Shown here: positions 30,545 through 63,835 of the stretch, piece after piece
Position numbering within the stretch: the stretch's first letter is position 1
How the letters are laid out: every line of letters starts with the position of its first letter
DNA from: Rhodovarius crocodyli
GTDB lineage: Bacteria; Pseudomonadota; Alphaproteobacteria; Acetobacterales; Acetobacteraceae
DNA: 64,000 nt
Assembly (NCBI GenBank): GCA_945901085.1
Contig: CAMDJV010000019.1
Span: forward strand, 1-64,000
Direction: 5' to 3'
Notes under the pieces: generated by a model
The model's input: the letters and a program-made list of their open reading frames with translations, nothing else
Told to the model about the DNA's origin: nothing
The model's database searches: none
Translations under genes and position numbers: made by a program

Positions 30545-31978
30545 ATGACCGTGACCGTGATCCGCGACGCTGAACTCGTCGTTGCCTGGGATGCTTCCGA
30601 ACAGCGCCACGCCTATATGCCCGGCGGCGATGTCGCCTTCCGCGACGGGGTGCTGAGCTTTGTTGGCCGTGGTTATGATGGCGAGGCGGATGTGGAGTTG
30701 TCCGGCCGTGGGCAGCTCATCATGCCGGGCTTGGTGAATATTCATTCGCACCCGACCTCGGAGCCGATGAATAAGGGGCTGATCGATGAGATCGGCTCGC
30801 CGGGGCTGTATAATTCATCGCTCTATGAATATATGCCGATTTTTCGCTCGGATTCGCAGGCAATTCCGGATTGCGTGCGGGTGGCGCTTTCGGAATTGCT
30901 GCTGAGCGGGGTGACGACGCTGGCGGATCTGTCCATCGCCCATCCTGGCTGGCTTGATTTGCTGGCCGAGGCGGGGATGCGGGTGTGCATCGCGCCGATG
31001 TTTCGATCCGCCCGCTGGTTCACCAAGAATGGCCATGTGGTGGAATATGAGTGGGATGAAAAGGCTGGCGAGAAGGCAATGGAGGAGGCGTTTACGCTGA
31101 TCCAGCGCGCCGAGCAGCATCCCTCGGGGCGGCTTTTCGGCATGGCCTGCCCGGCGCAGATTGATACTTGCGCGCCTGGCTTGCTGCGGGATTCTCGCGC
31201 CGAGGCGAGGGGGCGGGGGCTGTCCTGGCAGATCCATGCCGCGCAATCGGTGGTGGAGTTCCATGAGATCACCCGCCGGCATGGCTTTACCCCCATCCAA
31301 TGGCTGCACGAGATGGGGCTGCTGGATGAGCGGGCGGTGATCGGCCATGGGATTTTCCTCGATGACCATCCCTCCACGCCCTGGCACACCAAGAATGATC
31401 TGGCGATTTTGCGCGATACCGGCACCACGGTGGCGCATTGCCCGACCGTTTTTGCCCGGCGCGGCATCACCATGAAGGATTTCGGCCGCTATAAGCGCGG
31501 CGGCGTCAACCTGGGCGTGGGGACGGATACTTACCCGCATAACATGCTCGATGAGATGCGCCTGGTGGCCTATCTGGCGCGGACCCAGGCCAATGATCCG
31601 CGCACGATGAGTACGACCGATGTCTTCGATGCCGCCACGATTGGCGGCGCGCGGGCCTTGGGGCGCGACGATATCGGCCGGCTGGCGCCGGGCTGCCGTG
31701 CCGATTTTGTGGTGGTGGATGCCACCCATCCGCGGATGCAGCCCAATCATGACCCGGTGCGCTCGCTGATTTATGCCGCGGGCGATCGGGCGGTGAAGGA
31801 TGTCTATATTGATGGCGAGAAGGTCGTGGCCGATGGCCAGGTGATGACGATGGATTTCAAGGCGGCGGCGGCGAATTTGGCGGAGGCGCAGAAGCGGATT
31901 GTCGGGCGGGCGACCGAGCAGGATTGGGCGCATCGGCCGGTTGATAAGATTGCGCCGCCTACTTTTAAGTGGGTTTAA
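30545..31978 (+). CDS. amidohydrolase family protein (TrzN/guanine-deaminase type)
   Basis: 477 residues of the metal-dependent amidohydrolase superfamily: GLVNIHSHPT (first metal His pair), QIHAAQS, AVIGHGIFLDD and the catalytic Asp in GVGTDTYPHN. The layout suits the subgroup of aminohydrolases acting on N-heterocycles or amidines with one Zn. AGGG lies nine bases before the ATG. Placed 44 bases after the permease, it probably acts on the imported compound, releasing ammonia or an amine. Specificity is not predictable. Confidence 0.88.
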   Translation: MTVTVIRDAELVVAWDASEQRHAYMPGGDVAFRDGVLSFVGRGYDGEADVELSGRGQLIMPGLVNIHSHPTSEPMNKGLIDEIGSPGLYNSSLYEYMPIFRSDSQAIPDCVRVALSELLLSGVTTLADLSIAHPGWLDLLAEAGMRVCIAPMFRSARWFTKNGHVVEYEWDEKAGEKAMEEAFTLIQRAEQHPSGRLFGMACPAQIDTCAPGLLRDSRAEARGRGLSWQIHAAQSVVEFHEITRRHGFTPIQWLHEMGLLDERAVIGHGIFLDDHPSTPWHTKNDLAILRDTGTTVAHCPTVFARRGITMKDFGRYKRGGVNLGVGTDTYPHNMLDEMRLVAYLARTQANDPRTMSTTDVFDAATIGGARALGRDDIGRLAPGCRADFVVVDATHPRMQPNHDPVRSLIYAAGDRAVKDVYIDGEKVVADGQVMTMDFKAAAANLAEAQKRIVGRATEQDWAHRPVDKIAPPTFKWV

Positions 31979-31981
31979 CCA

Positions 31982-32097
31982 GGGGAATGAATTCCCCCGG
32001 ACCCCCTTCTTTTATTTTTGGTTTATTGGCGCTGGCTGCCGGGGTTATTCCCAATAGATAAAAATAAAAGAAGGGGGTTTGGGGGAATTCATTCCCC
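31982..32097. repeat. long inverted repeat (38-base arms)
   Basis: The arm at 31982-32019 (starting GGGGAATGAATTCCCCC, then ACCCCCTTCTTTTATTTTT) returns as its reverse complement at 32060-32097 with 36 of 38 positions paired. Each arm's outer part is itself palindromic (GGGGAAT-GA-ATTCCCC). The 40-base centre also pairs (ATTGG...CCAAT). It begins 4 bases after the amidohydrolase stop, so may end transcription, but it is far larger than a usual terminator and resembles a dispersed palindromic repeat. Confidence 0.9.
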
Positions 32098-32142
32098 CAA
32101 CGCTTGCCTGTAATAATTTTCCCTCGCCCAAAGGAAACACCC

Positions 32143-33300
32143 ATGGCTCTGAACATCGTCTCCCCCCGCTCCATCCTGGTGGGTGCGGGCACCGTCGCCC
32201 GCCTGGCCGAGGTGCTGGCGGCGCATGGCCTCTCTCGCCCGCTGGTGGTGACGGACCCTTGGATGGTGAGTTCCGGCACGGTGGAGAAGGCGCTGGCGCC
32301 GCTGCGCGCGGCGGGGATTGCGGTGGCGGTGTTTTCCGACACGGTGCCGGACCCGACCGATACCGTGGTCGAGGCTGGCGTCGCGGTTTTCGCCGCCGGG
32401 GATTACGACAGCATTGTGGGTTTTGGCGGCGGCAGCCCGATGGACACGGCCAAGGCCATTGCCATTCTGGCCGCCGTGGGCGGGCATATCCGCAGCCAAA
32501 AGGCGCCGCATGCGGCGGACCGTGCGGCGGCGCCGGTGATCTGCATCCCCACCACCGCGGGCACGGGCAGTGAGGCCACGCGCTTCACCGTTATCACCGA
32601 TACCGCCAATGATGAGAAAATGCTCATCGCCGGGCTGGGCGCGCTGCCGCTGGCGGCGATTGTCGATTACGAATTGACGCTCACCGTGCCGCCGCGCACC
32701 ACGGCCGATACGGCGATTGACAGTTTTTCGCATGCGCTGGAGGCCTATGTCTCCAAGCGCGCGACTGCGGTGTCTGACATGTATGGCGAGCGGGCGATGC
32801 GGCTGATCGGGCCCAATCTGCGCACCGTCTATAAGGAGCCCGGCAATCTGGCGGCGCGGGAGGCCATGATGCTGGGCGCAACCTTGGCGGGGCTGGCTTT
32901 CAGCAATGCCTCGGTGGCGCTGGTGCATGGCATGAGCCGGCCGATTGGCGCGCATTTCCATGTGCCGCATGGGCTCTCCAACGCCATGCTGCTGCCCGCC
33001 GTCACCCGCTATGGGCTTTCAGCCGCGCTGCCGCGCTATGCTCAGGCGGCGCGCTGCATGGGTGTGGCGCGGGAGAGTGATGCCGACCAGGTGGCCGGCG
33101 CCAAGCTGCTGGAGGAGTTGGAGGCGCTCAATGCCGAGTTGCATGTGCCCCGGCCCGGCGCCTGGGGCATTGATGCCGATCGGTGGAACGCGCTGCTGCC
33201 CACCATGGCGGCGCAGGCGCTGGCCAGCGGCAGCCCGGGCAATAACCCGGCCGTGCCCTCGGCAGATGAAATTATTGCGCTCTATCAGGAGGTGTACTGA
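32143..33300 (+). CDS. iron-containing alcohol dehydrogenase
   Basis: 385 residues of the group III Fe-dependent alcohol dehydrogenases, with the NAD region GFGGGSPMDTAKAIA, TTAGTGSEATRF, and metal ligands in DSFSHALEAYVSK and HGMSRPIGAHFHVPHG. They interconvert alcohols and aldehydes, here perhaps an aldehyde made in the locus. AAAGGAAA precedes the ATG at 32143; an upstream ATG at 32104 lacks this and overlaps the palindrome edge. Separated from the amidohydrolase by the long inverted repeat. Confidence 0.9.
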   Translation: MALNIVSPRSILVGAGTVARLAEVLAAHGLSRPLVVTDPWMVSSGTVEKALAPLRAAGIAVAVFSDTVPDPTDTVVEAGVAVFAAGDYDSIVGFGGGSPMDTAKAIAILAAVGGHIRSQKAPHAADRAAAPVICIPTTAGTGSEATRFTVITDTANDEKMLIAGLGALPLAAIVDYELTLTVPPRTTADTAIDSFSHALEAYVSKRATAVSDMYGERAMRLIGPNLRTVYKEPGNLAAREAMMLGATLAGLAFSNASVALVHGMSRPIGAHFHVPHGLSNAMLLPAVTRYGLSAALPRYAQAARCMGVARESDADQVAGAKLLEELEALNAELHVPRPGAWGIDADRWNALLPTMAAQALASGSPGNNPAVPSADEIIALYQEVY

Positions 33301-63776: not shown

Positions 63777-63835
63777 ATCGAGGGGCCTTGCCCCTCGAGC
63801 ACCCCAGCAGGAAGCTCAGTTTCCTGCACGTTCGT
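63777..63835. repeat. intergenic repeat module A, copy 2
   Basis: Matches 4961-5019 at 54 of 59 positions, same orientation: TCGAGGGGC-CTT-GCCCCTCGA then GCAGGAAGCT-CA-GTTTCCTGC. Begins 16 bases after the cytochrome c' stop. Confidence 0.85.

Follow-up and report, generated by a model that had tools for sequence, protein, structure and literature searches.

A dispersed palindromic repeat of Roseomonas-group genomes whose arms carry a stem-mirroring tail, a candidate two-way gene-end signal

The inverted repeat at positions 31982 to 32097 of the window, the 64,000-nt stretch of the Rhodovarius crocodyli assembly analysed here (contig CAMDJV010000019.1), belongs to a family of dispersed, mosaic, palindromic repeats that lie between genes in the Roseomonas group (Acetobacteraceae), and it is one of the two-armed copies. 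As a gene-end hairpin the element is ordinary; it is unusual in the tail behind each hairpin, which mirrors a strand of its own stem. From comparisons of the copies we consider it fairly probable that the element works as a two-way 3'-end hairpin or terminator that protects mRNA; its tail may act as a third strand on its own stem.

The arms of the window copy are 38 nt long (31982-32019 and 32060-32097), lie 40 nt apart and are complementary at 36 of 38 positions (95%). The RNA fold of 31960-32120 has a free energy of -87.1 kcal/mol (z = -9.45); 200 dinucleotide shuffles average -47.3 (sd 4.2), and not one of them folds equally well. The near-perfect inverted repeat of the original prediction is thereby confirmed, and the element is capable of forming the long double-stranded RNA or cruciform that it envisaged. 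An ORF ending at 31978 (TAA stop codon, 31976-31978, plus strand) precedes the element and a same-strand ORF with an ATG at 32143 follows it; the names amidohydrolase and alcohol dehydrogenase, taken over from the original prediction, are putative. The left arm (plus strand) has the same sense as the upstream gene. Its hairpin, GGGGAA-TGAA-TTCCCC at 31982-31997, begins 3 nt downstream of the stop codon; position 31981 has an A where the family has the first G of G5. Next come a mirror tail, CCCCCTT at 32002-32008, which complements the family stem GGGGGAA in parallel order and is a candidate third strand, and a T-rich tract, TTCTTTTATTTTT, at 32007-32019. The right arm (minus strand, 32060-32098) has the same parts: a hairpin GGGGGAA-TGAA-TTCCCCC at 32081-32098 (GGGGGAA-TTCA-TTCCCCC on the plus strand), a mirror tail CCCCCTT at 32071-32077 and a T-rich tract at 32060-32072. 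Each arm thus has the inner palindrome that had been described. The 40-base centre (32020-32059), said to be able to pair too, is self-complementary only in part, and its sequence differs even in the orthologous copy of the relative G004.

Rfam returns six matches on the window element, to eukaryotic microRNA precursors and two bacterial families. All are below their gathering scores and are therefore read as generic hairpin matches, and membership of a known RNA family was rejected.

Further copies of the arms are present in the same genome, so the element is not the single copy that would have spoken for a plain terminator. This genome (3.85 Mb, 91 contigs) has five two-armed copies, on contigs C19 (the window), C10, C12, C34 and C68, and further arms on C10, C16 and C23. 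One of the copies is situated between putative dnaK and dnaJ genes (these names, and that of an ABC ATPase below, were assigned by eye). Matches at E 0.001 were obtained in six of 40 genomes searched, the genome itself and five of 39 relatives. The arm-plus-tail pattern occurs in 11 of 249 family genomes (own included), representing six of 102 genera, and the reversed pattern has no matches there. With both strands counted, arm cores number 8 in the genome itself, 14 in G019 and one in G018; across 17 chosen genomes they range from 1 to 728, the richest four having 728, 310, 286 and 285, and a reversed control pattern of the core has no matches in these 17. A pattern search of genome contigs matched at least 120 stretches. 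Among the matches listed, the titles are Roseomonas, Pseudoroseomonas and Acetobacteraceae bacterium, with one Plastoroseomonas and one Rhodospirillales MAG as exceptions. Pieces of the arm, each covering 16-27% of the query, are found in five Roseomonas/Pseudoroseomonas plasmid records.

The arm unit reads AAGGC-Y-GGGGGAA-NGAA-TTCCCCC-linker-CCCCC-[A/T]-T-C followed by a T-rich stretch. The linker is mostly 3 nt long, most commonly GGA, AGA or GAA. In 205 arms the majority bases of the 5' flank are A-A-G-G-C-C/T, and a loose AAGG-type pattern matches the flank in 183 of them; the mean T fraction in the 10 nt past the tail is 0.74 (191 arms). A few arms (L004:1484-1503, L085 near 3390 and L121 near 6821) have a short perfect palindrome, of the GTTCGACATATATGTCGAAC or ACGTATACGT type, in place of the linker that normally joins stem and tail, which looks like the insertion of a tiny palindrome.

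An arm may stand alone or form an inverted pair with another, the tails then pointing inwards; 119 have a detectable partner and 57 do not. The 56 pairs in the 120 loci listed include 12 of 100-138 bp and 36 of 203-246 bp. In the genus of the window a copy usually combines two arm subtypes. The copies at dnaK-dnaJ and on C12, C34 and C68 have an 8-bp stem (AAA/TTT) in the arm beside the upstream stop codon and a 7-bp stem in the other, whereas the window copy and the orthologous copy in G004 have a left arm of the 7-bp type. The 8-bp stems, with three A-pairs, were sampled at a small number of loci, all in this one genus. Pseudoroseomonas deserti and Roseomonas sp. 18066 have a long form with a conserved interior. 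One P. deserti locus has at least 41 and at least 40 matches in the two genomes, most with 76-87% identity over about 250 bp, scoring being limited to 40 candidates per genome. The long form appears to spread as a unit, since its interior is conserved among copies. The interiors of elements of about 225 bp (L057, L063, L066, L138) contain extra hairpins, for example GCGCCGGAGGTC..GACCTCCGGCG and CAGCGCGACC..GGTCGCGCTG followed by T5. Such an interior could encode a small RNA; Rfam at the gathering threshold gives no match in four loci with the longer elements.

Placement relative to genes was determined with gene calls from our own codon-usage finder, not from annotation. The 120 Roseomonas-group loci listed contain 146 arms; 15 at locus edges and one inside a gene were set aside, leaving 130. 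A same-strand gene lies upstream of 93 of these (71 in convergent gaps, 22 in co-directional ones), and the gap to its stop codon is 20 nt or less in 84 of the 93; the other 37 have no same-strand upstream gene. Among gaps of at least 45 nt, arms are present in 55 of the 96 between convergent genes, in 61 of the 245 between co-directional genes and in 6 of the 95 between divergent genes. The single arms in co-directional gaps are sense in 15 cases and antisense in 21, and 25 such gaps have arms in both senses. All seven two-armed copies compared (five in the genome itself, two in G004) have one arm 2-14 nt past the upstream stop codon and in that gene's sense. A plus-strand scan detected no arm core inside called genes. 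Forty-two of the 47 arms that are flanked on both sides by genes on the strand opposite to the arm have the AAGG flank, which in the opposite gene's transcript is a short CCTT tract right behind the hairpin. This suggests that even a single arm is a two-way rather than a one-way signal.

Comparisons of orthologous sites indicate that copies come and go over the time scale of a genus. The dnaK-dnaJ copy is common to the genome itself and G004, whose DnaJ proteins are 94% identical, and the arm is absent from this gap in all other genomes compared there; in G005, G006 and G008 the gap has, by inspection, a GC-rich hairpin instead. Between the two dnaK-dnaJ copies 45 pairs are unchanged, 4 are changed on one side, 2 are changed on both sides and none is broken. 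Pairing is thus preserved in the alignment of the one site that allows a clean comparison. In the G004 ortholog of the window copy the arms are kept and the spacer is replaced; the alignment has 41 pairs unchanged, 5 broken and 6 gapped, and the G004 spacer has pairing of its own. The upstream-gene ortholog in G018, a member of another genus, is followed past its apparent end by a single arm. No such element follows the ortholog in G001, G002, G003, G005, G006, G007, G008, G011 or G013.

Three further observations concern the surroundings of these sites. In G012, of another genus, the same gene end carries a different long inverted repeat, of the AGTCC-T7-A7-GGACCAAAAAAACTTTT type (L180). The element's right-hand neighbour (window 32099-32143 compared with L172) is the putative alcohol dehydrogenase gene here and by eye an ABC-transporter ATPase-like gene in G004 and several congeners, which suggests a rearrangement at the element's right edge. 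Beyond the left-flank match of L258 and L259, several copies of the short motif GTGACCAAGGTCCAA, some in each orientation, are present in the genomes of P. cervicalis (G043) and Roseomonas sp. GC11 (G050).

The tail, which lies between the hairpin and the T tract, complements the 5' strand of the stem in parallel order and is thereby a mirror of the 3' strand. A total of 235 arms were collected with the tail left unconstrained, and 21 without a readable C-run were removed, leaving 214; most came from Roseomonas loci that had been found with a pattern including the 7-bp stem and the tail, and which are therefore enriched for the canonical arm. The C-run of the tail equals the G-run of the stem in 199 of the 214 (42 G4, 155 G5, 2 G6), and the A/T-run of the tail equals the number of stem A-pairs in 209 (201 with two, 8 with three). 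The left arm of the window, with a G4 stem and a C5 tail, is an exception to the G/C rule. Other stem/tail pairs that obey the mirror rule are GGGGGAGAA/CCCCCTCTT, GGGAGAGAA/CCCTCTCAT, GGAGGGAGAA/CCACCCTCAT and GAGAGGGGC/CTCTCCCCA. The comparisons of unequal pairs and of stem order given below likewise left the tail free and drew most of their arms from these loci. Homologous copies are not independent, and for this reason Fisher values are not interpreted as probabilities.

Each tail follows the stem of its own arm. Of 59 inverted pairs, 36 have unequal G-runs. In 28 of these 36 the two tails each fit the stem of their own arm, and in none do they fit that of the partner; 5 have an unreadable tail and 3 deviate. 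Both mirror rules are obeyed by 54 of the 57 arms without a detectable partner. Maintenance of the tail by pairing with the opposite arm is ruled out by the unequal pairs and the single arms, and neither a long cruciform nor arm-arm pairing explains the tail.

The order in which the tail reads the stem was assessed on distinct stems. Against shuffled tails, 115 stems score z = 5.4 for the parallel and 3.3 for the antiparallel complement, and direct identity and reversal are not in excess; perfect matches (7/7) number 8 parallel and 1 antiparallel. For the 27 stems with a T tract the scores are 3.5 and 3.6, and the perfect sevens 6 and 0. Parallel order is better in 62 of 181 informative stems and antiparallel in 32, with 87 ties; among the 50 stems matching at 6 or more of 7 positions the figures are 33 and 5. 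When tails were anchored on G alone, 40 of 167 stems could be anchored; the reversed control allowed 33 of 167. In parallel order stem A then faces T 31, A 14, C 14 and G 3 times, and in reversed order T 5, A 13, C 10 and G 13 times; stem C has no clear partner in this test, and the partner of stem A is the only one that differs. In 201 arms the first stem A is opposite A 101 times and opposite T 100 times, and the second is always opposite T, a combination that fits neither pure triplex motif. A facing A is a non-standard triplet in the pyrimidine motif. A third strand is, to our knowledge, the only interaction that reads a parallel complement, and the tail-stem match is read here as the signature of a putative intrastrand triplex.

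Exact mirror tails were counted in three sets of sequences. The Roseomonas loci contain 188, compared with 84 antiparallel, 9 identity and 8 reversal controls, and 464 kb of the genome itself contain 24, compared with 6, 5 and 1. In 400 kb of G019, a scan in which at least 3 of the 20 stretches were chosen to include known arms, 11 mirror tails stand against 9 antiparallel controls, with no excess beyond the 4 family arms. Extension of the mirror rule beyond the arm family is uncertain. Two more hairpin families with mirror tails were seen in the window, and both recur in the genome: CGAGGGGC-CTT-GCCCCTCG-A-GCACCCC at 5200-5128 (minus strand) and CCAGGAAAATGATTTTCCTGG-ACCTTT-GATATTTTTTT at 63779-63830 (plus strand).

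The working model derived from these features is as follows. The arm first met by RNA polymerase would fold in the nascent RNA and stop or attenuate transcription of the upstream gene, and the opposite arm would have the same effect on transcription arriving from the other side. On read-through, the whole 116 nt could form one long hairpin that would protect the upstream mRNA end and lessen read-through. The mirror tail may dock as a third strand in the groove of its own stem, and this docking would bring the T tract next to the folded structure to give a stop signal. The window element is not a textbook terminator. The T tract of an intrinsic terminator lies 0-2 nt behind the GC hairpin and here it starts about 11 nt past the stem, so that without docking the element would be a poor terminator; a standard terminator scan reports no site at 31982-32097. 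The arms do share with intrinsic terminators the place after stop codons and the avoidance of divergent gaps. Several features sit less easily with simple termination. Single arms in co-directional gaps are antisense as often as sense, and 37 of the 130 arms have no upstream gene on their strand. dnaK and dnaJ are usually co-transcribed, and a full stop between them would be odd. The arm sequence is also more conserved than termination in general would require, and copying or a bound protein is suggested by this. The regulatory RNA element of the original prediction is retained here as a probable regulatory element. A broader proposal, that the arms define a class of terminators in which a third strand (RNA, or DNA behind the polymerase) docked on its own hairpin draws up the T tract, gives a two-way stop and is missed by standard finders, is tentative, and we regard it as rather doubtful.

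The repeat could instead be a non-autonomous mobile element, MITE- or REPIN-like, for which the ends of genes are tolerated insertion sites and which has no role in transcription. We hold this to be unlikely, although several features speak for it: the uneven copy number, the longer versions with a repeated interior at the P. deserti locus, the pieces on plasmids, and presence at the upstream-gene ortholog in the genome itself and G004 with absence in G001-G003 and G005-G008. A neutral insertion should also be tolerated in divergent gaps, where arms are scarce, and the pairing at dnaK-dnaJ has been kept; the many single arms would not be expected of a two-ended MITE. The MITE suggested in the original prediction is borne out as to dispersed copies with terminal inverted repeats, and is not supported in the strict sense. 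No target-site duplication is recognised in the flanks of two sites in the genus and one Pseudoroseomonas site, and no autonomous parent is seen, with Y1/RAYT (PF01797) as the one transposase family searched. That profile is positive in 5 of 14 control genomes. It matches neither the genome itself (97% complete, 91 contigs) nor 12 of 13 arm-bearing genomes; the thirteenth has one weak partial match at the cut-off, in a 55-codon frame. Identity with a REPIN/RAYT system was ruled out on this absence.

Two other explanations were considered. The second C-run might be an alternative Watson-Crick partner of the stem G-run, with the hairpin shifting towards the T tract. Such a shift would likewise equalise the G- and C-runs, and the antiparallel complement does exceed shuffles over the 115 stems and equals the parallel one in the 27 stems with a T tract. 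It leaves unexplained the agreement of A-run and A/T-run in 209 of 214 arms and the irregular stems GGGGGAGAA/CCCCCTCTT, GGGAGAGAA/CCCTCTCAT and GAGAGGGGC/CTCTCCCCA, and parallel order leads in the perfect sevens of both sets and in the stem-by-stem comparisons; we judge it improbable. Even less credit is given to a recognition sequence, either a DNA uptake signal or a protein-binding site, that was co-opted into terminators. Strong conservation, up to hundreds of copies and inverted pairs at gene ends agree with it, and the accessible part of one report describes such a precedent in the uptake sequences of Neisseria and Pasteurellaceae (PMC1852404). Arms are nearly missing from coding sequence, with no cores in called genes and one of 146 arms, the pattern is not found in most of the family, and stem and tail co-vary, which argues that structure matters.

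The bacterial intrastrand triplex motifs catalogued so far have no settled function. The arm family ties such a motif to gene ends, a T-rich tract and three-strand co-variation in more than 200 related copies, which makes a role of triple helices in bacterial RNA 3'-end formation directly testable. If the proposed class of terminators is real, terminator predictions for Roseomonas-like genomes would overlook a class of gene-end signals, and in some Roseomonas genomes the arm would be among the commonest of these.

The open-access literature yielded no paper on the arm repeat or on a triplex-containing terminator, and one could exist elsewhere. Several known systems resemble the arms in part. 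Like intrinsic (Rho-independent) terminators, including those built from uptake sequences, they place a GC hairpin past stop codons, have a T-rich tract and prefer convergent gaps; unlike these, their T tract stands about 11 nt off the stem behind a stem-mirroring tail, and their sequence is conserved across the whole family. The RIME of rhizobia is a palindromic intergenic mosaic of other alphaproteobacteria, about 100-250 bp long. By description alone, the arm family is similar in being palindromic, intergenic and mosaic. With REP, BIME and REPIN elements the arms share a short palindromic unit, single or as an inverted pair with a spacer, in many intergenic copies. They differ from REP and REPIN in that the arm consensus has no GTAG/GGAG- or CGTC-type foot, and from REPINs with a RAYT in the profile searches described above. 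CGTC repeats are listed as missing in Acetobacteraceae in the accessible text of PMC3733652.

The closest likeness is to the potential intrastrand triplex (PIT) motifs of bacteria catalogued by Holder et al. 2015 (PMC4666352), for which comparison is made with the accessible part of that paper. As in PIT, BoxC and TM_ECO, the arm has three consecutive strands, mirror symmetry of the second and third, a 3-nt linker, a G/C-rich composition and a dispersed distribution. Purine, pyrimidine and third strands with triplet complementarity and short linkers are present in 199 (G/C) and 209 (A/T) of 214 arms. By the classes of that paper the arm's reading strand is class III (purine-pyrimidine-third strand) and its opposite strand class I, and class III motifs are said there to be able to form in RNA (PMC4666352). 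The BoxC/TM_ECO consensus, CCCTCNCCC N3-6 GGGNGAGGG N3 GGGNGAGGG, is not shared by the arms when compared by eye. In the accessible text, E. coli PIT motifs show no link to gene orientation, an earlier study cited there found no promoter or terminator activity for PIT/BoxC, and the authors found no in vivo support for a stable triplex of BoxC (PMC4666352). Unlike PIT/BoxC as described there, the arm combines its three strands with a T-rich tract, a place behind stop codons and co-variation across homologous copies.
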